The notes under the pieces are model-generated. The model was given only the letters and a program-made list of their open reading frames with translations, ran no database searches and had not been told where the DNA came from. Position numbers and translations under genes: made by a program. Shown one piece after another: positions 3,939 through 35,859 of a stretch of DNA of 44,525 bases. The stretch is from IMG/VR virus record IMGVR_UViG_3300046007_005629, positions 1 through 44,525 of that record; one strand, 5' to 3'. Origin of the DNA: a virus. Numbering within the stretch: the first letter of the stretch is position 1; the number at the start of each line of letters is the position of its first letter.

Positions 3939-5795
3939 TTATGTTATTTCACAGGCACCTCCTGCACAAGCAGCTTGATCTTGCAAATTGGTATTATCCA
4001 TTAATTCAACCACTTGAGACAAATCAATATTTGTTAATGATTTCATCATATCTAAATACTTTGCTTCATCACAGTCTTCAAAAGGAGCTTGAATATAAGT
4101 TCCTCCATTGTAAGGAAGTACTGACAATCCATTATAGAATTTTCTATTCTCCCACATCCAAGCGCCTACTTCATCCCATTCATTTTCTTTAATTGAAACG
4201 GTAGCGGATATGTTATGAGTATTTTGACCTCCTCGATGTCCTGGCTTGATCCAATTAGTATAGAACCATTTAACTCTTTCTAACAAATCTAATGCAGACT
4301 CATGTCTTAATATAGAACCGTCTGGAGCTTTTTGTGGCACTGAAATCACTGCTGTATCGTGAGGACGGAAATATTCATCTTCAACTAACTCAGGATGATT
4401 AATTGTTAAGTAAGAATAAATTGCTTCATTCTTTCCTACTCGAATTCTTCTAACATAATAATCATTGTGCCAAGCGTGAATACCTGAAGAGGTGCCTAAC
4501 ACCAATGAAGAAGTTCCAGAAGGCTTAATAGTAGTCGATCTAGCCGATTTATTGATTCCAATAATTTTTGCTACTCTTTCATTTTCTTCTTTTACAATTC
4601 CAGCTGCTGCCTTCAAATCATATTTTTGAGCTTGGTCTGAACCTACTCCTGTCATACCTACTCCAATCAAAGCGTCTTTCTCTGTAGTTCGTTGCCACAC
4701 AGAACGCAAATAATGGAAATTGGTATATCCTGCTTGAAGCGTTCCAATAAATGAAGCAGCTTTAACTCTAGCATCTAAATCTTCTTGAGATGTAATATCA
4801 GATACATTTACTTCACATAAATTACAAAACTGAAATGGTCTTAATGCTATTTCGCAACATGGATTAGTTCCCCAATCTTTATCATTTGAAAAATAAATTC
4901 CAGGCTCCCCTGCTCCAGAAGCTTCAATCTTTTTCCATAAACTTAAAAAGAATTCTTCAGTAATTTTATTTCTTAATAACACTGCTGAATTATTTGCTCT
5001 TCCTCTTTGTGGATTCAACTCCCACCATGCTCCTGATTTCGAAGCAATCATTTCATCATCGTCTGCCGAGAATAAAGATATCAAAGCGGCTCTACGAATT
5101 CCTCCAGCTAACACAGCATCTGCAATATGACACACTATATCATGCACCTCAATAGAGGTTAATTTTTCATTGTCTTGTTTAGTATCTAATATACCTTGAA
5201 TTTTTACAAGACATTCTTTTAATGGTTGTGGTCCTGGAGCTTTACCTCCTGAAGTAATTAACATTGCTCCTTTTTGACGAATGTCTGAAAAGTCGAAGTT
5301 AATTGTTGACCCGCCTTGAAAATAAGACTTCATTAGAATCTTAACAGCGTCTGCCCAACCTTCAATAGAATCTCCAATTAAGAATCTTCTATGTTTAGTT
5401 GGATTTGGTTTTCTAATTTCAGGTAATGCATCTACGTGATGTTTTTGAACAGAGTATCCTACTCCCGTACCACCTAACAATAAAAACATAACCTCTCCAA
5501 ATGCTCTCCAATCATCTATTGGAGCATACGCGCAATTATAAATTCTATTAGGAGAAATTTCAACTGGCTTACCGCCAAATTGCAAAGATCTCATAGAAGG
5601 TAGAACTTTTTTGTCGTATACAAATTTATAAGTCTCTTCAATTTCTTGGGCCAATTGAGGGTACTTTTTAATGTGCATTTCTTTGTTTCGAGTAACTAAC
5701 TCTTCCCACGTTTCACGTCTCTGGAGTGAAGACTGAAACCTCGCGTATTTCATATGAACTGTAATGTCAGATAAAATTTCGTTTGATAATTCCAT
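3939..5795 (-). CDS. nrdJ: Class II (adenosylcobalamin-dependent) ribonucleotide reductase
   Basis: Makes deoxyribonucleotides from ribonucleotides using a cobalamin-generated thiyl radical, independent of oxygen and of a small subunit. At 618 residues it resembles the monomeric Lactobacillus-type triphosphate reductase (about 739) more than NrdA. Visible features: Cys88 in RIYNCAY; the catalytic loop NPCCEI with Asn311, Cys313 and Glu315; Cys324, which with Cys88 forms the redox pair; the KPSGTSS nucleotide-binding segment; and a C-terminal CAGGAC (C-x4-C) that shuttles electrons from thioredoxin. The spacing Cys313 to Cys324 equals that of Cys408 to Cys419 in the Lactobacillus enzyme. trxA and dut lie downstream. 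A leader of about 75 bases separates it from the helicase gene. Confidence 0.93.
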   Translation of the reverse strand: MELSNEILSDITVHMKYARFQSSLQRRETWEELVTRNKEMHIKKYPQLAQEIEETYKFVYDKKVLPSMRSLQFGGKPVEISPNRIYNCAYAPIDDWRAFGEVMFLLLGGTGVGYSVQKHHVDALPEIRKPNPTKHRRFLIGDSIEGWADAVKILMKSYFQGGSTINFDFSDIRQKGAMLITSGGKAPGPQPLKECLVKIQGILDTKQDNEKLTSIEVHDIVCHIADAVLAGGIRRAALISLFSADDDEMIASKSGAWWELNPQRGRANNSAVLLRNKITEEFFLSLWKKIEASGAGEPGIYFSNDKDWGTNPCCEIALRPFQFCNLCEVNVSDITSQEDLDARVKAASFIGTLQAGYTNFHYLRSVWQRTTEKDALIGVGMTGVGSDQAQKYDLKAAAGIVKEENERVAKIIGINKSARSTTIKPSGTSSLVLGTSSGIHAWHNDYYVRRIRVGKNEAIYSYLTINHPELVEDEYFRPHDTAVISVPQKAPDGSILRHESALDLLERVKWFYTNWIKPGHRGGQNTHNISATVSIKENEWDEVGAWMWENRKFYNGLSVLPYNGGTYIQAPFEDCDEAKYLDMMKSLTNIDLSQVVELMDNTNLQDQAACAGGACEIT

Positions 5796-10454: not shown

Positions 10455-10676
10455 TTATTTATTTTCTTTAGCATTCTTATAAACGGTTTTCAACCATTTA
10501 ATGAATCCCATTTTTTCGTCTTTTTGAATATTTGGATATTCTTTGAAGAATTCCATTGCAAACGCATTAAATGAAATCGCATCTTGAGCCATTAAATCGA
10601 TATCTGACATAGCAGATTCTTTCATTGCTTTTTTTACTTCCTCTTTGATAAGAGCTCTGAATTGAGATGCTTTCAT
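10455..10676 (-). CDS. Small protein with capsid-targeting-like leader
   Basis: 73 residues. The N-terminus MKASQFRALIKEEVKKAMKE is nearly the same as the start of the 104-residue protein at 23896-24210 (MKASEFRKLIREEVKKALNE). It forms an amphipathic helix ending in x-x-Glu before Ser, a plausible but weaker prohead protease site. The remaining 50 residues are helical with several aromatics (FAMEFFKEYPN, FIKWLKTVYK). No known family. If the leader means what it does in T4 internal proteins, this is a packaged protein, even though it lies among replication genes. It starts one base after the stop of the upstream gene. Confidence 0.75.
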   Translation of the reverse strand: MKASQFRALIKEEVKKAMKESAMSDIDLMAQDAISFNAFAMEFFKEYPNIQKDEKMGFIKWLKTVYKNAKENK

Positions 10677-18322: not shown

Positions 18323-21238
18323 TTAAAATGCTCCATGAGCACTATCCATTTTTGTATTATATGTTTTTCTTAAAGTAGTCTGTTTTTCAATTTCATCGAT
18401 TACTTTACCTCCTATATTAATAGATACTGGCTGAGAAGTCGCTGCTATTAATTGTTTTAATAAACTAGCTATTTCTGAATTGTCTTGAGCAGGAGCTGAA
18501 CCTCCTCCTATCATTGCAGAAACTCCTCCCATTAGTGAGGCAGCTAAGTCGCCTAATCCGCCCATACCAGAGTCGCTTGTCGAAGTTCCTCCATTGGCAC
18601 CTAAATCGGTTCCAGCTATTACAGAATCTTGTTTATCTAATTGATATGTACCTTTTGCACCTGATACTACTAAACCACCTGAAGGGTCTATTTGTGCATC
18701 TGAAACTTTAGTAGCTGTCGCTCCACCGGAAGTAGCTTCTTCTTCATCAGAGCCTCCTAACCAAGAAGGTAATAAATCAGTTAATGCTGAAGCTTTATCA
18801 GATACCCAATCAAACGCTGCGTTAAATGGAGCTGTAACTCCGTCTATTATCGAACTTCCTATACTTGCAATTCCGTCTACTATATTAAAACCTATGCCTT
18901 TGACCCCATCTGTTATCATTTGACCTAAATTATCTACATCAAATAAACCTCCAATGAAATCCATTACCATTCTAAATGGCCAAGATAAAGTATCAATTAT
19001 AGCGCCGCCTATAGATTTTAAAGCATCTACAATTCCGATATCTCCACTGAATACTCCTTTTATAAGTTCCCATCCTTTCATGAAAGGAGCTATTATTCCG
19101 TCTGTAATAGCAGGGGCAAATCCTGCGATTAAGTCCCATACTAACATAACCGGAGCATAGAAAAGCTTTAATATACCCGACCCGACATCTTTTAAACCTT
19201 CCATAATATCTCCACTAAAGATTTTACCTATTCCTTTAACTAAATCAATTACTCCTAATAATGGAGCAAATGCAAATTTAATTAATGGCATAATTGCTGG
19301 CATAATCCATGTTATAATATCTGTCAATGGATCTATTATTTCTGCAATCGGGCCTGCAACTTTACCAAATAGAGTAGTCAGTTTATCTGTTAAAGCATTT
19401 ATTTTATCTTGAGCAGATGCTTGTTGATTAGCAGTTTCTAACGCAGCTGCTTCTTCTGCACCGATTGCGCCTTGAGTTTCTAACTGCTTAATTTGTTCAG
19501 AAGTAAGATCTTTCATATCTTTAATCTTCTCACCTCCTAGAGCCTGACTATATTTTTCTAACTCTCCAGCTTTCATTAATTGATCAACTGTCAATCCTGC
19601 TGCATCAGCAATTGCTTTTTGTTGATATGGAGCCATTTGCAATAATTCGTCATAGCTACCTGCTTGTGCTACTACTTCAGCAGCTGCAGCTGCTGTATCT
19701 CCTTGTAAAGCTAATTGTCTAGCAGCATTCATATTCATATGCTTACCAGTTAACACATTAGCTTTCATTTCATTTTCAAGACTTGACTCAATGTCTAATA
19801 AATTTGCAGATACACCCGCAGTCTCTTCTAATGTCATTCCTATTTTTTTAGCTTGGATAGCTGCTTTGGTTAATGCTGCAACATTTCCTTTGTAGCTAGC
19901 TGTCGTTGCTTTAGATGCTTTTGCAATGTCGGCAGTAATTTCTTTAAAATTGACAGAATCTCCTGTCATTGCATTATACATTTTAGCAGTCCTCTGAATT
20001 TCCTGAGTCATTTGTGGCGCGGTTTTACCCATACCAGCTGCTGTTTGTTGAAATTCTGCAGCTTGCTCGCCTGTCATTCCATATTGTTTAGTAAGTAATA
20101 CTTGAGATTCTAACATCTCTTTACTTATCTGTCTGCTAGTACCTAATGCTTTATTTAAGTCTACAGAGGCAGCTGTCATTGTATGCACATTAGCTCCAAT
20201 AACTTTGGTGTCCATGGCAACATCTTCTAAATGATGATGCGTTTCTAAAGCTTCTTCTTTAGAAATTCCCATTTGTTTAGCGAACTCTGTAGCTTCAGCG
20301 TCTATTTCAAACGCTTTTTTAATTAACATTACAGCAGCTGCGATTGCTAATGCAACTGGAAGTAATGGACCCATTGCTGCTGAAGCACCTGCTGCTGATG
20401 TAGCTGCCGCACCTCCCGCGCCTTCGGCCATTTGCAATCCTTTTACCATTCCTTGCGCTCCGTCAGCAGCGCCCATCATACCTTCTGTTACTCCTCCAGT
20501 TGCGCCTTCAACACCGTTTAATGCATTTATCTGTGCATCATAACCATCTATTGCAGCTTGTGAAGCATTTTGTGCTTGCACAGTGCCTTTCATAAACACA
20601 TTTTCTAATGACTTACCTACTTTTGCTTCTAACTCTTCTTTTAGTTTATCAGTACCTAGAGCTTTTGATAAAAATGAACCTACTATAGGAATTTCTTTTA
20701 TTGAGTCATCTATTTTGTCGACAAACCCTAAAGACTCTGATACTGAATCTTTATATTTATCCTGAAATTTATTAAGCTTCATTTGAGACTCTAATAAAGT
20801 CTTTCTATGAGGTAATGCATCCGCTTCAAGTTTAAATACTTGTTTCTTTACATCAGCAGCTTTAATTGCAATTTTATAATCTTTTCTAGCTAATAATCCA
20901 GCTGCTTGATCATTTTTTAATGATTTAATTTTATCAGAAGCTAATTTATGTTGTAATCCTAAACGAGCAATTTCATTAGCATTAAGTTCCTTAGATACGT
21001 CAAAGATATCATCCTCAAGGTCTTTAATTTCCTTAAGAGTTCGTTTAATTTCTTGGTTTGTTTTATACCTTCCTTTATCTAACTCAGCTAATTCTTGTGA
21101 ACTTTTTCTAGATTCTTTCGCTGCTGTGGATTGTTCCTTTTTAATTTTAGCAAGGTCTTTGTCAACAGAAGCTGGCTTTGGAGCTGCCGACTTTGGAACT
21201 GCAGGCGATGGTGGAGTACTTGATTGCTTCTTAGCCAT
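18323..21238 (-). CDS. Tape measure protein (gp29-like)
   Basis: 971 residues. Sets tail length and occupies the tube lumen before DNA ejection. The N-terminal 200 residues are charged coiled coil. A Gly/Ala-rich hydrophobic stretch (about 265-310, including LLPVALAIAAAVMLI) is a likely membrane-active segment. The middle is a long helical region rich in Ala, Gln and Met. A second set of hydrophobic, Trp-containing amphipathic helices runs from about 640 to 830 (ITWIMPAIMPLIKFAFAPLL and similar). The C-terminus is Gly/Ser-rich then closes with a strand VSINIGGKVIDEIE. This size and layout, and the position between tail chaperone-like genes and the gp48/54-like gene, match tape measures. It starts 11 bases after the preceding small gene. 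Confidence 0.9.
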   Translation of the reverse strand: MAKKQSSTPPSPAVPKSAAPKPASVDKDLAKIKKEQSTAAKESRKSSQELAELDKGRYKTNQEIKRTLKEIKDLEDDIFDVSKELNANEIARLGLQHKLASDKIKSLKNDQAAGLLARKDYKIAIKAADVKKQVFKLEADALPHRKTLLESQMKLNKFQDKYKDSVSESLGFVDKIDDSIKEIPIVGSFLSKALGTDKLKEELEAKVGKSLENVFMKGTVQAQNASQAAIDGYDAQINALNGVEGATGGVTEGMMGAADGAQGMVKGLQMAEGAGGAAATSAAGASAAMGPLLPVALAIAAAVMLIKKAFEIDAEATEFAKQMGISKEEALETHHHLEDVAMDTKVIGANVHTMTAASVDLNKALGTSRQISKEMLESQVLLTKQYGMTGEQAAEFQQTAAGMGKTAPQMTQEIQRTAKMYNAMTGDSVNFKEITADIAKASKATTASYKGNVAALTKAAIQAKKIGMTLEETAGVSANLLDIESSLENEMKANVLTGKHMNMNAARQLALQGDTAAAAAEVVAQAGSYDELLQMAPYQQKAIADAAGLTVDQLMKAGELEKYSQALGGEKIKDMKDLTSEQIKQLETQGAIGAEEAAALETANQQASAQDKINALTDKLTTLFGKVAGPIAEIIDPLTDIITWIMPAIMPLIKFAFAPLLGVIDLVKGIGKIFSGDIMEGLKDVGSGILKLFYAPVMLVWDLIAGFAPAITDGIIAPFMKGWELIKGVFSGDIGIVDALKSIGGAIIDTLSWPFRMVMDFIGGLFDVDNLGQMITDGVKGIGFNIVDGIASIGSSIIDGVTAPFNAAFDWVSDKASALTDLLPSWLGGSDEEEATSGGATATKVSDAQIDPSGGLVVSGAKGTYQLDKQDSVIAGTDLGANGGTSTSDSGMGGLGDLAASLMGGVSAMIGGGSAPAQDNSEIASLLKQLIAATSQPVSINIGGKVIDEIEKQTTLRKTYNTKMDSAHGAF

Positions 21239-21249
21239 TGTATTTTAAA

Positions 21250-21666
21250 TTAAATAACTTTATATTTCTTAAGGATATCTTTATGTCTATCTCTAGTTTT
21301 TTGCATTACTTTAGTAATATCATCTCCCATTTTTACATCAATACCATCTTTCTGAAGTTCTTTAATTAATTTTTCATATTCAGATACTTTTTTCTTTAAT
21401 TGATCTGTAAGATTATTTAATGCTTGCGCTGATACTTTAATTTGTTGCTGCAACTCTTTATACTCTCCAGAATTTTTAAGGTATTCTGCTTGCTTTCTAA
21501 GTTTAGGTTCAACAAAAAGATTTAATAAAGATGCTAGTAAAGTTTCATGTAATTTACATTTACGTGAATGTGTAGCATCCATTAACTGAATATCTTCAGT
21601 AATTATTTCTAATTTTGTATATGCAACCTCTTCTTTGATAAGTTGCTTTAATTGAGTTAATTTCAT
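21250..21666 (-). CDS. Small protein with capsid-targeting-like leader
   Basis: 138 residues from the ATG at 21666. I prefer this start over an in-frame upstream one at 21732 because a terminator (21738-21759) and a promoter-like motif (21682-21696) lie just before it. The leader MKLTQLKQLIKEEVAYTKLE resembles those of the proteins at 10455, 23896 and 37577 and is followed by IITE-D, a possible but non-canonical gp21-type cleavage site. The rest is helical, with a Cys-x-Leu-His segment and a coiled-coil C-terminal half rich in Lys, Gln and Leu. No known family. First gene of the tape-measure/baseplate unit. Confidence 0.75.
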   Translation of the reverse strand: MKLTQLKQLIKEEVAYTKLEIITEDIQLMDATHSRKCKLHETLLASLLNLFVEPKLRKQAEYLKNSGEYKELQQQIKVSAQALNNLTDQLKKKVSEYEKLIKELQKDGIDVKMGDDITKVMQKTRDRHKDILKKYKVI

Positions 21667-21737: not shown

Positions 21738-21759
21738 TAGGGCCGTTATCTTGGCCCTA
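21738..21759 (-). terminator. Hairpin terminator after the gp51-like frame
   Basis: A perfect 7-bp inverted repeat (TAGGGCC / GGCCCTA) with an 8-base loop, followed on the minus strand by TTTTTG. It overlaps the stop codon at 21746 of the gp51-like frame. Confidence 0.75.
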
Positions 21760-22054
21760 CTGATGGTCTATCTATTTTAGGTTTAGACGTATTTTTTGTA
21801 TTTCCTTTTTGTGCTTCTTTCTTTTTAAGCAAAGCTTCTTCAGTTTTTTTATAATAAAATTTACGAAGCCACACCGGCATATTATATAATTCGGTCCAAG
21901 TAAACCCATCGCCATAATAAACCATATCAAATAATTGAGTATGGATTACTGGTTTATCTTTAGGACTGAGGCCAAAAAAAGCTAGAATCAATACTGAATC
22001 CCATCGCCTCCTCTTCGTGGTCGCACTCTGTGCAATTGAAATAGCTAACTTCAA
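21746..22054 (-). CDS. gp51-like baseplate/tail chaperone frame, overlapping gp26-like gene
   Basis: The recognisable part runs from about 21980 to 21746: FFGLSPKD, LFDMVYYGDGFTW, LYNMPVWLRKFYYKK and a Lys-rich tail. A short protein with the Asn-Met-Pro-x-x-x-Arg-x-Phe-Tyr pattern follows gp26-like genes in other T4-like phages, where it is called gp51 or a hub assembly protein (recalled, not searched). It is in the +1 frame relative to the gp26-like gene, overlapping it by 95 bases. No ATG exists before the conserved segment; the frame opens at a TTG (22054). Expression may instead need a +1 shift on the run of seven T (21974-21980). The coordinates given are the maximal frame. Confidence 0.7.
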   Translation of the reverse strand: MKLAISIAQSATTKRRRWDSVLILAFFGLSPKDKPVIHTQLFDMVYYGDGFTWTELYNMPVWLRKFYYKKTEEALLKKKEAQKGNTKNTSKPKIDRPSVGPR

Positions 22055-22832
22055 ATTTTAAATCTGGAGAAATTTCTTTCATATAAGTTCTTAAAGCTCT
22101 AGAATCCATTGCAAATAACTCATTGTCTACAAAATCAACAACTGCTCGTCTGTCTGCGTTTCCGTCTACAGATACAATAATATTTTTCAATCTAGTTGTC
22201 AATTCTCTATCAACGCTTTGATTGTTTTTGTTAGCTTTTTTAGATGCTTCAATATCTTTTGATATCTTTTTATCATCCCCAATAGTTAATAATCTAAATT
22301 CAATTACTCGTTTAGTTTGAGGTAGTGTAAATTCAAATATTCCTGGGCTAGTTTGTACAGCATAATCTGGAATATTGTATTCCGGTAATTGAGTTAAATC
22401 TACTGTTACTTTATTTTCAGCACCACATTTTGGGCAAGTTACTACAATTGGATAATCTTTTCCATATCCTAAAATACGAGCCGCTACCATTATTGCATTT
22501 TTGTCGCCTATTACTAAATCTTCATATCTAACAGGAGATACAATCATTGACTGCATTAGCTTATCTAATACAATTCCTTGTTTAATTAAATTCTGTGAAG
22601 TAAGAATATCTTCTTCTCGAGCTGTCATGTATTTCATTTCTATAGTTCCTTCTCGCAAAGGGTTACCTTCAGGATATACTAATCCTTTAGATGGCAATGA
22701 AATTATTTCAGTTGGAAAATTAGAAGCTTTTACTTCTTGTCGAGCTAAATTTGTTAATGCTAAATCTTTTAATTGAGCATCAGTAAGTTCAGTGTTATTC
22801 GACTTTGGGTAGTTGTCATTAACTTGTGCCAT
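21960..22832 (-). CDS. gp26-like baseplate/tail assembly protein with zinc finger
   Basis: 290 residues. The N-terminal half carries EIISLPSKGLVYPEG, IEMKYMTAREEDIL and NLIKQG, the signature of the T4 gp26 baseplate family (PF12322 as I recall it). A zinc-finger-like pair is seen: CPKCG near 136-140 and CTECD near 266-270. The C-terminus ends in SSFFWPQS, where the DNA carries the T7 run shared with the gp51-like frame. In T4 gp26 and gp51 help assemble the hub; here the pair sits one small gene upstream of the tape measure, the place of the lambda G/GT tail chaperones. Own promoter-like motif at 22851-22865. Confidence 0.85.
   Translation of the reverse strand: MAQVNDNYPKSNNTELTDAQLKDLALTNLARQEVKASNFPTEIISLPSKGLVYPEGNPLREGTIEMKYMTAREEDILTSQNLIKQGIVLDKLMQSMIVSPVRYEDLVIGDKNAIMVAARILGYGKDYPIVVTCPKCGAENKVTVDLTQLPEYNIPDYAVQTSPGIFEFTLPQTKRVIEFRLLTIGDDKKISKDIEASKKANKNNQSVDRELTTRLKNIIVSVDGNADRRAVVDFVDNELFAMDSRALRTYMKEISPDLKFEVSYFNCTECDHEEEAMGFSIDSSFFWPQS
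21974..21980 (-). other. Candidate +1 frameshift site (run of seven T)
   Basis: On the minus strand the gp26-like frame reads TTT TTT TGG CCT CAG TCC TAA, while the next gene needs TTT TTT GGC. A +1 slip on the T run would fuse the two products a few codons before the gp26-like stop. Confidence 0.4.
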
Positions 22833-22888: not shown

Positions 22889-23431
22889 TTAAAGGTTTCC
22901 TGCTTTTCCTGTAAAGTGAATATCAGCTTTATCTTCTAAACCTGATTTATTTAACCATTTGCCTAACTCTTCATCCATATTTGGTACAGGTTGAGTTTCA
23001 TTTCCTGGTTTAGATAGTTCAGGTACAATAACTTGATTGATAAACATAGCTTCTACTTTATCATCTAGTAATGTAGATACTTCTGGAGATAATTTAAGTG
23101 CATCCCAGAATGGACCTGTTAAGTTTTTAAACTCTGAAGATTTAGGATTTTTTAATCCGTCGTTAGACACAGATTTACCTATAGATAAAACAGCTTGAGC
23201 TACATCTTTAATATTTGATATGTTATCATAGGCTTCCAAAGCAGTTGTTATAATTGATAATCCTGGTATTAGCGATGCTCCCCATTTACCGCCAGTTTTT
23301 AATATTTTTGCTGCTTCAGCTTTGTTTTGCTTTCCTTTAATTGAATTTAATAATTTAGAAACTTCACCCCATGTAATTTGTTCCTCAGCTTCATTAAGTA
23401 CTTGCTCTGCTATAGGTTTAAGCTTGATCAT
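22889..23431 (-). CDS. Leader-bearing virion protein candidate with hydrophobic segment
   Basis: 180 residues from the ATG at 23431; a TTG five codons upstream (23446) is less likely. The leader MIKLKPIAEQVLNE is followed by Ala, a good match to the prohead protease site Leu-x-Glu before Ala. After it comes a basic helical region, a hydrophobic stretch (WGASLIPGLSIITTALEAY, about 52-70), and a conserved-looking PFWDALKLSPEVSTLLDDK block. No family I can name, though I recall similar segments in other T4-like phage proteins. It overlaps the end of the upstream leader-bearing gene by 14 bases (ATGATC...TAA), so the two are coupled. Probably packaged or virion-associated. Confidence 0.78.
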   Translation of the reverse strand: MIKLKPIAEQVLNEAEEQITWGEVSKLLNSIKGKQNKAEAAKILKTGGKWGASLIPGLSIITTALEAYDNISNIKDVAQAVLSIGKSVSNDGLKNPKSSEFKNLTGPFWDALKLSPEVSTLLDDKVEAMFINQVIVPELSKPGNETQPVPNMDEELGKWLNKSGLEDKADIHFTGKAGNL

Positions 23432-23771
23432 CTGTAGTCGTTGCAACTGGTTTTAACATTCCTTTAATCTTTCCTACTATTTGAGAAAATTCTTTTTCTG
23501 ACATTCCGAAGGCAATTGCAATAGCACCTACTAATGCGGCTCTTTGCGCTGGGTTCTTTAAAGATTTAGCAGCGTCTGGATCTTCAAGAATCTGTATTAA
23601 CTTAGGTCGTAGGCTCGAATCTACTGCCTTTACTGCTAGGTTCAAGTTGGTTATGATTCCTTTATCAGTGATTTTATTACCGTCCGGTCCGACAGGAATT
23701 ACATCAGCTTCATGAAGTTGCTTTTGTGGAGCAAATTCTTTTAAAAGTTGTTTGAATTTATCTGGTGTCAT
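23418..23771 (-). CDS. Small protein with capsid-targeting-like leader
   Basis: 117 residues. The N-terminus MTPDKFKQLLKEFAPQKQLH ends in Leu-His-Glu before Ala, fitting the gp21-type cleavage rule. The predicted mature part begins ADVIPVGPDGN and is a helical domain of about 95 residues with an Ala/Gly-rich hydrophobic stretch (AALVGAIAIAFGMSEKEF). No known family. Promoter-like motif at 23781-23795 and a strong terminator immediately upstream, so it starts a transcription unit shared with the next, overlapping gene. Confidence 0.78.
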   Translation of the reverse strand: MTPDKFKQLLKEFAPQKQLHEADVIPVGPDGNKITDKGIITNLNLAVKAVDSSLRPKLIQILEDPDAAKSLKNPAQRAALVGAIAIAFGMSEKEFSQIVGKIKGMLKPVATTTDDQA

Positions 23772-23895: not shown

Positions 23896-24210
23896 TTAAT
23901 TATCTAGTTTTATTTTTAACATACTCTCAATATCTTTTTTCATAGAGTTATATTCACCTCTGGTAGCTGCGTCGTAATCACCCCAGTCTACTTCACTTTT
24001 TATATCTCGTGGCGTAGATGTAGGCTTCAATTCAAACTCAATGCCATAGTCATCAATTAACATGTCGACTATCTGTTGAAACTTTTTTTGCTTTTGAGCC
24101 TCTGTAAATGCCGTATATAGCAACTGTTTTATTTGTTTATCAAGACTGCCTTCATTTAAAGCTTTTTTTACTTCTTCACGAATTAATTTTCTAAATTCTG
24201 ACGCTTTCAT
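23896..24210 (-). CDS. Small protein with capsid-targeting-like leader and LNE-G site
   Basis: 104 residues. The leader MKASEFRKLIREEVKKALNE is followed by Gly, an exact fit to the Leu-x-Glu/Gly prohead protease rule. The leader is nearly identical to that of the 73-residue protein at 10455-10676 although the bodies differ, so leader and cargo look modular. The predicted mature part is helical, acidic near the C-terminus (DWGDYDAATRGEY). No known family. It follows the tail tube gene after 10 bases and ends at the terminator at 23807-23830, so it is made with the tube protein. Confidence 0.8.
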   Translation of the reverse strand: MKASEFRKLIREEVKKALNEGSLDKQIKQLLYTAFTEAQKQKKFQQIVDMLIDDYGIEFELKPTSTPRDIKSEVDWGDYDAATRGEYNSMKKDIESMLKIKLDN

Positions 24211-24220
24211 AAATTTTTAA

Positions 24221-24709
24221 TTAGAATTGAAGTATTGCGTAATCGTATTTCAAAGTTAATGTAATGTTGATAGCGTCTTCTGTCGACCAATCAAAGTCAC
24301 CAAAGTTAGCGTCTCCAATATAAGCTCCTTTTAGTGTCCATTCTTCAACTTTATCACCTACTGGTCCTAAAGCATTGAAAGTAATGTCTTTCTTATAAAA
24401 GTCAGAGTAACCATCTCTACCTGTTACAGATTCTTTTCCTAAACGAATCCATTCCATTACTGCTTGAGATGCAGACGGAACTACAGGATCATAAAGAGTG
24501 ATAGAAACGTCGTTCCATCTTCCTTTTCCTTTTAGTTTTCTCTCAACGTTGATATGATCTAATACTACGTCTCCGAAAGTGATTCCAGGTCTGTTAGCTG
24601 CTTTTATTAGGTAAGCAGGAATACCTTCAATATACATGATAAAACGGTTAGCTACTTTTGGTTCAAAAGCAGTAAACATGATTTCCGTTGGGTCTAATAA
24701 TTCAGCCAT
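24221..24709 (-). CDS. Tail tube protein (gp19-like)
   Basis: 162 residues, the same size as T4 gp19 (163). Polymerises into the inner tube through which DNA passes. Characteristic segments: NRFIMYIEGIPAYLIKAANRP near the N-terminus (read as NRFIMYIEG then AYLIKA), VERKLKGKGRWNDVSITLYD, the central helix ASQAVMEWIRLG, and the closing strand ITLTLKYDYAILQF. These match T4-type tube proteins. It lies right after the sheath gene, as 18-19 in T4, but is separated from it by a terminator and two promoter-like motifs, allowing separate and strong expression. Confidence 0.93.
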   Translation of the reverse strand: MAELLDPTEIMFTAFEPKVANRFIMYIEGIPAYLIKAANRPGITFGDVVLDHINVERKLKGKGRWNDVSITLYDPVVPSASQAVMEWIRLGKESVTGRDGYSDFYKKDITFNALGPVGDKVEEWTLKGAYIGDANFGDFDWSTEDAINITLTLKYDYAILQF

Positions 24710-24850: not shown

Positions 24851-27283
24851 TTATGCTCCTGGGAAGGCAGCACCGGTAGGTAAAATGTTAAAGTCAATTA
24901 TAATAAACTCAGCGGTTTTCGCAGGTTGTAAATAAATTTGACCATACATAATATTTCTATCAATGATGTCTGGAGTGTTATTTGTTTCATCCATAATAAC
25001 TTTAAATCCATAAAGACCTTGTCTTTGTTGAACTGACTCTAAATATGGATTACAAATATTTAAGAAACGGTTACGAGTTGCAGCTGTATTGTTTTCGAAA
25101 ACCAAATACTTTGTTGCAGACGCAATAAATTTCTTAACAGCAATTAACAATCTTCTTACGTTGATTCTGTCTAGAGCTGACGGTTTAGCTTGAAGAGTTT
25201 TTTGACCCCATACACATACACCTTGAGCAGGGAATGTTGCAATTGGATTAACTCTTCCTTCATATAATGTATCTCTTTCAGCGTGAGTTAAACGAGTATA
25301 TGCGTCGATTACTGTTGATAATCCACCTCTATTTAAACCTGCTGGAGCATACCATTCTGCAGCTACTTTATCATTGAAAGATAAAACACCTGGAATAACA
25401 ACTGTCGGAGGAACCCAAACCGGTTTGTTAATACCAACATCTAATATTTTTACCCATGGATAGTAAGTTGCAGCGTAATTATTATCAATTGTTTGAACTG
25501 TATCTACTGCTATTGCAATATTATCTGTTAATCCAGCACAGTCAAATACCAAGAAAGTATCTCCTCTGTCTAAACACATATTAGCTGCATAGTCAATAAC
25601 TGCTGGATGCAATGTGTTAATAACACCTGGAAGAACTAACATATTAATATCTAATTCATCTGGGTTTGAAACTGCATCAATAGCATTAGTATAAACTGAA
25701 TAATCTTTACCAGATATTCCATTTAAGTCGAATCCTTGAGTATTTGAAGCTACAATCTCATCTCCTGTCAATCTTCTTCTATTTGGCTGAACTCCGTCAA
25801 ATCCACCTTGGAAAGGTACAACGAATTTACGAGTTTCAGATGAAGTTGAAGTAGTTAAATTAATTGACCCAGAGTATGCTTCTGCAGCGGTTGGATAATT
25901 TGCAGCTGCGTTTTGAGTATAATTTGATAATAAGAATTTAGCATTTGAACCTGTAGTCGAATTATCACCAGGAATTGGTTTTAAGTAATTGATGTTATCT
26001 GTACTACCTAAATCATAATTAAATCCATAATGCACTCTTTTATTGTATATACCACCTATTGATTGAGCAGTTACTAAAGAAGCAGAGAATGGAGCAGTGA
26101 ATGTTGAAGGTAATGGACTAAATAATGCAGCATGTCCAAAAGGAACTAATTCTTCAGATATCGCTGCTTTAGCAACATTCGTGTCAACCTCAACATAAAT
26201 ATATTTAGATTTATTAGCATAGTCACCATGTAAAATAACTTTACCATTTACAAATGTTCTATATCTATCTCCAATTACTCTAGCAATATATCTAGCAGAG
26301 TTAGGATCTAAATTTACATTATCAAAAACTTCTAAGAAATTCGGTCTAACATCAGTGTCAGTGGTATCATATGGAGAGCCAATTGCTTTTAAATAAGTTT
26401 GATCTACACCTCTAACAGCTACTGTAAATGAACCATAAGTTGATCCTGGTACAGTTCCTGCAGCTTTAATATTAGAAATTGCAATTTTAATTTCATAATT
26501 CGAAGTATTACCATCACTGATAGTATGAATTTTGAATAAATTGTAATTTGTATTATTTACTGTCTGAGATATAATCCATGGAGTAGTTGCATGATTAAAT
26601 GTAGATTCTGATTGATAATCAAATGATTCTGTTACAAAATAACAACTCGGGTCAGCTGCTAATGAAGCAGATGCTGCAGTATCAAATAATGTATATAAGA
26701 ATCCTGGTTGAGTTGTAGTGTTAGGTATTTTACTGAATACTTTAGATAAATAGTTTGGTGAAGTAGAGCTTATTGAAGCACTAAATGTATTGCTTACTGT
26801 AAATCCATCAGTTGGTGTATATGATCCTGATACTGTTACTACTACAGAACCTGAAGCATTAGAAGTTAATGCTGTTTTTTCAAACATTGTAGTAGCTGTC
26901 GCTATTGCAAAGTTCGTAGCAGTTTCATTAACTACTTGAGAAGGGTGAATTAATGCGATGTGTCTTTTTCCGAAAGAACCTGTTGCAACTAAAGCAACTG
27001 GAGCTACTACTTTATATCCATCATCATGTAAAGTACGAACAACTGTTAATTGTCCTGAAGAGTTTAAATACTCCTTAGCTGTGTAAGGTAAGTATAAATT
27101 TGGGTTGGTATTACCAAAAGTTTGCACAAACTCATTATAAGAAGAAACTGTTGTTGGAACCATTGCTGGTCCTTTCAATGTCGGACCTACGAATGCAGCT
27201 CCAATTTCAGAAATTCCTTGAGGTAAGAAAGACAAATCTTTTTCTTCGGTAAAGACACCCGGGCTAACGATTTTTTCTGCCAT
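24851..27283 (-). CDS. Tail sheath protein (gp18-like)
   Basis: 810 residues, longer than T4 gp18 (659). Forms the contractile sheath. The N-terminus (SPGVFTEEKDLSF) and the C-terminal domain are typical: INVRRLLIAVKKFIASATKY, YLVFENN, LYGFKVIMDETNN, then IDRNIMYGQIYLQPAKTAEF and IIIDF. The conserved start of that domain, RLTHAERDTLYEGRVNPI and FPAQGVCVWGQKTLQ, is also present. The middle (about 130-500) is Ser/Thr-rich, strand-rich and not recognisable, and accounts for the extra length; such inserts are usually exposed on the sheath surface. Its leader of about 70 bases holds one promoter-like motif, and a strong terminator follows. Confidence 0.95.
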   Translation of the reverse strand: MAEKIVSPGVFTEEKDLSFLPQGISEIGAAFVGPTLKGPAMVPTTVSSYNEFVQTFGNTNPNLYLPYTAKEYLNSSGQLTVVRTLHDDGYKVVAPVALVATGSFGKRHIALIHPSQVVNETATNFAIATATTMFEKTALTSNASGSVVVTVSGSYTPTDGFTVSNTFSASISSTSPNYLSKVFSKIPNTTTQPGFLYTLFDTAASASLAADPSCYFVTESFDYQSESTFNHATTPWIISQTVNNTNYNLFKIHTISDGNTSNYEIKIAISNIKAAGTVPGSTYGSFTVAVRGVDQTYLKAIGSPYDTTDTDVRPNFLEVFDNVNLDPNSARYIARVIGDRYRTFVNGKVILHGDYANKSKYIYVEVDTNVAKAAISEELVPFGHAALFSPLPSTFTAPFSASLVTAQSIGGIYNKRVHYGFNYDLGSTDNINYLKPIPGDNSTTGSNAKFLLSNYTQNAAANYPTAAEAYSGSINLTTSTSSETRKFVVPFQGGFDGVQPNRRRLTGDEIVASNTQGFDLNGISGKDYSVYTNAIDAVSNPDELDINMLVLPGVINTLHPAVIDYAANMCLDRGDTFLVFDCAGLTDNIAIAVDTVQTIDNNYAATYYPWVKILDVGINKPVWVPPTVVIPGVLSFNDKVAAEWYAPAGLNRGGLSTVIDAYTRLTHAERDTLYEGRVNPIATFPAQGVCVWGQKTLQAKPSALDRINVRRLLIAVKKFIASATKYLVFENNTAATRNRFLNICNPYLESVQQRQGLYGFKVIMDETNNTPDIIDRNIMYGQIYLQPAKTAEFIIIDFNILPTGAAFPGA

Positions 27284-34989: not shown

Positions 34990-35859
34990 TTATTTTTTTA
35001 AACCTGCTAATTTTTGGAATCTGCTAGCTAAGTCAGCTCCTTCAGATAAAATACGCTTTGCTGGTTTAGTTGAAGCTACTGGCTTCGATGCGTATGATTC
35101 TTTAATCGACTTTTTAGATGATGGAGTTTTGAATCCTTCAGCTAATGTTGAGAAAACTAATTTCACTTCACGTAAATTATGAGCTCTGTCAAAGTTTTCA
35201 ATTACTTTCATTTTTTGACCTTCGTTCAATGCAAAATTACGGAACAATTTGTTTGAGTAAAGAAGTTTAGCATTCAATAAATTAACTTCATTGATTTTAC
35301 CTTTTAAGAAACGAATAACATTATAAGCTTCTTCTAACTCTTCGCTAGACTCTTCTTCTTCAGTCATTTCTTCAGCTTCTTCATCTTCTTCTCTTAAAGA
35401 ACGAATGATTTCGTTGATGTCGATATCTTCATCTTCTTCTTCAGTCATTTCTTCCTCTTCTCCTTCTTCCATTGGGTCTTCTTCAGAATAATCGCCTTCT
35501 TCCATTGAGTCGTCAGAATCGCTTTCTCCTTCTAATTCTCTGATGATTTCTTCTAAATCTAAATCATCTTCTTCTTCAGTCACTTCTTCTTCAGAATGGT
35601 CTTCTTCAGAATGGTCTTCGCCTTCTTCACCTTCCTCTACAGGAGCTTCGTTATCAGCATACGCCATATCATCTTCTTCATGCATCTCTTCGGTTTCAAC
35701 TTCTTCTTCCTCTTCAGAAAGTTCTTCAGCTAATTTCGCAGATAACATAGATTGAAGTCTTGGAGTAAACGCTTCTTCTAAAGCTAATTTAGCATTAGCA
35801 AGGGCAGTTTGTTTTACAGCTTTTGCATCAGCAATCGCTTCTTTCAATAAATCTTTCAT
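34990..35859 (-). CDS. Prohead core/scaffolding protein (gp22-like)
   Basis: 289 residues. Internal scaffold degraded or cut during head maturation. The N-terminus is an Ala/Lys-rich helix (MKDLLKEAIADAKAVKQTAL). Residues about 45-170 are extremely acidic, with repeated Glu/Asp/Ser/Met runs encoded by GAA/TCTTC-type repeats. The C-terminal third is helical and basic. At least four gp21-type sites are present: LALEE-A, ALNE-G, TLAE-G and ILSE-G. Position between the protease and capsid genes matches T4 gene 22. A possible Shine-Dalgarno (AGAGGA) lies about 8 bases before the ATG, unusual for this window. The leader contains two promoter-like motifs and an inverted repeat. Confidence 0.88.
   Translation of the reverse strand: MKDLLKEAIADAKAVKQTALANAKLALEEAFTPRLQSMLSAKLAEELSEEEEEVETEEMHEEDDMAYADNEAPVEEGEEGEDHSEEDHSEEEVTEEEDDLDLEEIIRELEGESDSDDSMEEGDYSEEDPMEEGEEEEMTEEEDEDIDINEIIRSLREEDEEAEEMTEEEESSEELEEAYNVIRFLKGKINEVNLLNAKLLYSNKLFRNFALNEGQKMKVIENFDRAHNLREVKLVFSTLAEGFKTPSSKKSIKESYASKPVASTKPAKRILSEGADLASRFQKLAGLKK

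Follow-up and report, generated by a model that had tools for sequence, protein, structure and literature searches.

The window analysed here, a stretch of viral DNA of 44 525 nucleotides, carries a gp26-like gene whose end is overlapped by a second open reading frame. This second frame, called gp51-like, is coding and lies in another frame, and its counterparts have no conventional start in 62/174 relatives. The question raised by the locus is how it is translated. An earlier note, made from the letters of the window, had proposed that the two frames form a tail chaperone pair produced by +1 frameshifting, and the comparative sequence evidence is best read in this way; we put the probability of this reading at a little under nine in ten. 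TAC-N (the gp26-like protein) and TAC-NC (the gp26-gp51 fusion) would be made from one start codon by programmed frameshifting. Most ribosomes would terminate at the gp26-like stop and release TAC-N. A minority would stall with Phe-tRNA on the second UUU and UGG waiting in the A site. The Phe-tRNA (or a Leu-tRNA on CUU) would then move one base forward and re-pair with UUU in the +1 frame, and GGC or a similar codon would be read next to give TAC-NC, whose C-terminal part is the gp51-like three-helix domain. If the pair works like lambda gpG/gpGT, the tape measure protein would be bound by the core and tail tube subunits brought in through the extension, and the TAC-N : TAC-NC ratio would depend on the efficiency of the slip. 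Sequence comparison shows the coding status of the extension, its frame relation to the gp26-like gene, the conservation of the slip codons and the homology to T4 gp26/gp51; slippage, its efficiency and the chaperone function are inferred.

Organization of the locus

The window is a fragment of a T4-supergroup genome with a gp20 portal, a gp23 capsid and a T4-type terminase; no tRNA genes were found in it. The features of the locus are listed in Table 1. The proposed chaperone locus lies between the tail tube gene upstream (whose PF06841 match of 28.0 bits is slightly below the cut-off of 28.2) and the presumptive tape measure gene downstream, the latter being preceded by one small gene as the earlier note had described. 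The tail sheath gene also lies upstream of the gp26-like gene. The tape measure ORF, for which no Pfam match was found, was assigned from its position and size. The tape measure gene is the usual neighbour of tail assembly chaperones, and the interval between the tube and tape measure genes is their classical place.

Table 1. Positions of the features discussed in the text
Feature	Position	Strand	Remarks
gp26-like gene, proposed TAC-N	21960..22832	-	290 aa + TAA; ATG at 22832
0-frame stop TAA, end of the short product	21960..21962	-	4 codons past the P-site codon
T7 run	21980-21974	-	
Proposed +1 slip site UUU UUU UGG CCU (0-frame codons)	21969..21980	-	
gp51-like C-terminal extension, +1 frame	21746..21973	-	75 aa + TAA
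Small gene between proposed chaperone pair and presumptive tape measure gene	21250..21666	-	138 aa; context only
Presumptive tape measure gene	18323..21238	-	971 aa
Tail tube protein (gp19-like)	24221..24709	-	PF06841 E=2.2e-6
Tail sheath protein	24851..27283	-	PF04984 E=1.1e-15, PF17482 E=1.1e-13
Proteins with an amphipathic N-terminal stretch	10455-10676, 21250-21666, 23418-23771, 23896-24210, 34990-35859	-	

On the minus strand, the gp26-like gene ends in ...AGC TTT TTT TGG CCT CAG TCC TAA, with the two TTT codons at 21980-21978 and 21977-21975 and the four codons TGG, CCT, CAG and TCC between them and the stop. In the +1 frame the junction reads TTT TTT GGC CTC AGT CCT, with GGC from 21973, and this frame stays open for 75 codons up to its own TAA at 21748-21746. 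The proposed slip site would present UUU in the E site, UUU in the P site, UGG in the 0-frame A site and GGC in the +1 A site. The predicted fusion (proposed TAC-NC) has 286 + 75 = 361 aa and a mass of about 41 kDa, in agreement with the approximately 360 residues given previously. The positions, the +1 frame relation, the run of seven T common to both frames and the distance of the gp26-like stop were thus as first described. The absence of an ATG ahead of the conserved part of the gp51-like frame was likewise confirmed, TTG at 22054 being the sole candidate start.

Protein family and structure models

The gp26-like core matched Pfam family T4_baseplate (PF12322) with E=1.9e-12 and 47.8 bits (curated cut-off 24.5), and PHROG 150 'baseplate hub' with E=9.5e-16. 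T4 gp26 and T4 gp51 each match PF12322 (8.8e-64 and 3.9e-52) and are therefore paralogues; their genes are on opposite strands, and gp51 exceeds the gp26-type core by about 48 residues. Searched alone against Pfam and the PHROGs, the 78-aa extension gave no match, and its homology was seen by profile alignment. In pairwise hhalign comparison (E=7e-9), the extension profile aligned over its full length with small gp51 proteins from phages such as KVP40 and the cyanophages. These classic small gp51 proteins aligned in turn with the C-terminus of T4 gp51 (E=2.4e-6), and T4 gp51 was also matched by PHROG 634 at 1.2e-23. Directly compared with the T4 gp51 C-terminus, the extension profile gave no useful score (E 0.2), so the classic gp51 proteins serve as a bridge. 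These alignments establish homology between the extension and the C-terminal domain of gp51. The name gp51-like holds for this C-terminal domain and goes no further, since in T4 gp51 the domain follows a complete gp26-type core. In Campylobacter phage NCTC12673 (L111, L113), more than one PF12322 match was found in neighbouring frames, so that this phage, like T4, may have two paralogues.

The core and the extension were modelled separately. The AlphaFold2 model of the core had a pLDDT of 87, and the extension was modelled as three helices with a pLDDT of 80. When the core model was aligned with 995 PDB chains, the top chain was the HK97 tail assembly chaperone 2ob9 (gp13), with a Z of 5.3 over 72 residues (model 39-124); a Z under 8 can reflect a common arrangement. 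A Foldseek search of the core model against the PDB returned nothing below E 0.1, and no relative was found by sequence search of the PDB. The HK97 match of the predicted model is modest, yet it is to a chaperone of exactly the expected kind. Together with T4 gp26/gp51 and the place of the gene, it points to a function as tail chaperone.

Coding status and initiation of the extension

Over 735 pairs of relatives with 75-95% identity, dN/dS in the extension frame was 0.114. Changes at the three codon positions numbered 4051, 2159 and 11210, the third position dominating, and the other two frames across the extension gave ratios above 1. By this comparison of sequences, the extension frame is coding and under purifying selection.

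A coding extension might be a separate gene, translated as a free gp51-like protein after a restart at a non-ATG codon near the gp26 stop or from an internal ATG. The TTG in the window's extension frame would allow this, small separate CDSs are annotated in the P-SSM2, KVP40 and immuto records, and in two relatives (L297 and L303) an ATG follows just after the gp26 stop. However, between the last in-frame stop and codon 10 of the extension, no ATG, GTG or TTG is available in 62/174 relatives, and in 57 the frame opens at most six codons before the slip point. A start at an internal ATG would cut off the beginning of the domain, where residues are conserved, and separate initiation leaves the synonymous TTT/CTT conservation described below unexplained. 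The other 112 relatives have a potential start, so that separate initiation is formally possible in them; the slip codons are conserved there too. We consider a separate gene improbable, although it is the best of the alternatives to +1 frameshifting.

An ATG-started, non-overlapping gp51 gene in relatives had been named in the earlier note as evidence contrary to frameshifting. Such a gene is present in L297 and L303, which form one nested clade in which the slip site is also altered. This fits a loss of frameshifting in that clade and does not refute it elsewhere.

Conservation of the proposed slip site in relatives

A total of 280 relatives from IMG/VR and phage records was reduced to 193 representatives (<90% nucleotide identity over the last 450 nt). 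The extension lies in the +1 frame in 175 of these and in the -1 frame in 18. The 175 include a Campylobacter phage without a scored extension, which was dropped from the later statistics (n=174). Whether relatives keep the site and the frame relation had been proposed as a check, and their recurrence in 175/193 dereplicated relatives is far beyond chance.

The slip codons (E, P and A sites) are TTT TTT TGG in 128 relatives, TTT CTT TGG in 23, TTT TTT TAC in eight and other combinations in a few. Among cultured phages, Microcystis phage Mel-JY01 has TTT TTT TGG and Flavobacterium phage immuto TTT CTT TGG. Where the P-site residue is Phe, its codon is always TTT (147/147; 77% in the rest of the gene), and where it is Leu, the codon is CTT in 24/27, against a background of 18.6%. 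Phe in the E site is TTT in 165/171, while the other conserved Phe columns have 62-89% TTT. The 0-frame A-site codon is UGG in 159/174 and UAC in 10/174, and in about 98% the P-site codon is directly followed by a T, whether the next residue is W or Y. The 0-frame stop lies 4 or 6 codons after the P-site codon in 164/174 relatives. A P-site codon that can re-pair one base forward (YUU U) is thus synonymously conserved in nearly all +1 relatives. Neither protein needs these preferences for YUU and a following U, which are those required if a tRNA bound to YUU is to re-pair in +1. They are given as percentages, which are safer than binomial P values since the latter ignore shared ancestry.

The +1 frame could also be reached if ribosomes slipped by -2, and the product would then be one residue longer, with FFFG in place of FFG. 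A tRNA on UUU UUU U can re-pair after a -2 shift as well as after a +1 shift, the E-site U's are strongly conserved, and -2 shifts are in use in phage Mu (PMC5009743). Nevertheless, TTC TTT TGG/TAC sites retain the +1 extension although a -2 shift would place Phe-tRNA on UCU, and the T right after the P-site codon, not needed for -2, is present nearly throughout. We regard -2 slippage as somewhat less probable than a separate gene. Slippage of RNA polymerase on the T7 run, giving mRNAs one U short and a fusion made by ordinary translation, is the least credible: the window and most relatives do have a seven-base homopolymer, but the same frame relation is found with TTT CTT T in 24 relatives and with TTC TTT T or CTT TTT T in others, none of which has such a run, and runs of at most seven bases are not known to be commonly shortened by one base through slippage.

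Two candidate stimulators of the proposed +1 frameshift were dropped. SD-like words upstream of the site were enriched (53/174 versus 3/174), an enrichment that is confounded by Gly codons and can be explained by them. Downstream RNA folding was slightly below that of shuffles (mean z about -0.9; control -0.1), which was judged too weak for a claim.

Different sites were seen in four other phages. In L084, L085 and L089 (Streptococcus, Bacillus SP-15 and Listeria phages), the extensions are in +1 and the sites are TTC TTT CGT CCC CGA, TTT TTT CAC and TTT TTT AGT. The extension of L088 (Stenotrophomonas RAS14) lies in -1, and its site is T TTT TTT A.

Direction of the proposed shift and exceptional clades

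Eight classic T4 relatives, namely P-SSM2, Syn9, HTVC008M, Cr30, Vi01, phiM12, KVP40 and phiW-14, have a single gp26 gene to which the extension is joined at the same FF position as in the window lineage. They differ in that their extension is in -1, whereas it is in +1 in the window lineage. Seven of the eight have an in-frame U UUU UUY, a canonical -1 heptamer, and Vi01 has GAA ATT TTC ATT. The window lineage has (non-U) UUU UUU U, its U run being one base later in register than that of the classic relatives. In the window itself (AGC TTT TTT T, extension in +1), the canonical heptamer X XXY YYZ is not formed. A T directly ahead of the run was seen in 2/150 relatives versus 81 expected, and both exceptions have TTC at the E site. 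As T before the run is nearly absent and neither exception forms the -1 heptamer U UUU UUU, this heptamer is absent from the lineage. No -1 heptamer could form at TTT CTT T sites, and U before the run was found in 0/24 of them. Since these sites also lack the U, avoidance of -1 shifting is a possible, not a proven, cause; the idea that U is avoided solely to prevent a -1 heptamer was not fully supported and was set aside.

Some relatives depart from this pattern. In a nested clade (L050, L051, L073, L074, L130 and L131), the extension is in -1 and the site is A AAU UUC (A AAU UUU in L051). In L297 and L303 the slip codons are changed, and the gp51-like domain starts at an ATG of its own just behind the gp26 stop, with extra N-terminal residues (MNIDRFLQELQES... 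in L303); this is apparently a natural split of the fused gene. In a tree of the cores, T4 gp26 and gp51 group with the -1 relatives (99, starred), and both the nested -1 clade and L297/L303 are inside the +1 clade. The tree was built by a quick method, and T4, RM378, BRock and some others have long branches in it. T4 gp26 and gp51 may have arisen by duplication within the -1 group. On a more speculative reading, which we hold to be less likely than not, moving the U run by one base in register could turn a conserved phage recoding site from -1 to +1 or back, as the nested -1 clade suggests.

Comparison with known systems

T4 gp26 and gp51, which are hub assembly chaperones, share the PF12322 core, and the window's extension is homologous to the gp51 C-terminus. 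T4 and the window lineage are alike in having a short form and a long form that bears the same C-terminal domain; they differ in that T4 has two full paralogous genes on opposite strands and the window lineage one gene with a proposed +1 shift. According to the passages of PMC10885494 and PMC12846349 that summarise Vladimirov et al. (2022), tail assembly chaperones were proposed there for T4-like phages, some of which have one short copy and another that is longer and fused. For T4-like TAC-N genes, these passages also mention poly-T signals for -1 shifting. From these summaries and the paralogy described above, we read the two copies as gp26 and gp51; gp26/gp51 as chaperones have apparently been published already.

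With lambda gpG/gpGT, the locus shares its place before the tape measure gene and the pairing of a short abundant and a long rare chaperone from one start, as proposed here. The lambda shift is -1 and the proposed one +1, and the likeness is one of gene arrangement. Tail chaperone frameshifts of tailed phages occur in -1, -2 and +1 forms, with +1 known in some and, for HSTV-2, suspected in its tail genes, and T4 is given as the exception (PMC5009743). The site also resembles that of RF2 (prfB), with a P-site YUU followed by U and, as proposed here, a forward re-pairing. CUU is the RF2 P-site codon, CUU U is found in about a seventh of the relatives, and at the RF2 site UUU is one of the slipperiest codons that can take its place (PMC10885494). 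In contrast to the RF2 stop, the 0-frame A-site codon is UGG or UAC here, and comparison of the 174 relatives did not establish an SD element spaced as in RF2. A +1 U7 site in this lineage was not found described in the part of the literature covered by the search, and the conserved +1 site at UUU UUU U or UUU CUU U appears to be new.

The family that includes the T4 exception would thus have its frameshift in place in a large, mostly uncultured environmental lineage. It offers a natural series of arrangements (-1, +1, +1 back to -1, an extension split off with its own ATG, and T4 with its two paralogues), with many sequence variants for testing what sets the direction of bacterial frameshifting. 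Current annotations omit the gp51 domain or cut it short; all that the immuto record shows at this place is a hypothetical protein of 36 aa.

Other features of the window

A B12-dependent (class II) ribonucleotide reductase-like protein (PF02867, PF21995) is encoded in this T4-like fragment at 3939-5795 on the minus strand. Several small or mid-sized proteins (Table 1) have a similar amphipathic N-terminal stretch (MKASEFRKLIREEVKKALNEG, MKASQFRALIKEEVKKAMKES, MKLTQLKQLIKEEV or similar). By analogy with T4, this stretch might be a common signal for targeting or processing, for instance a capsid-targeting peptide.
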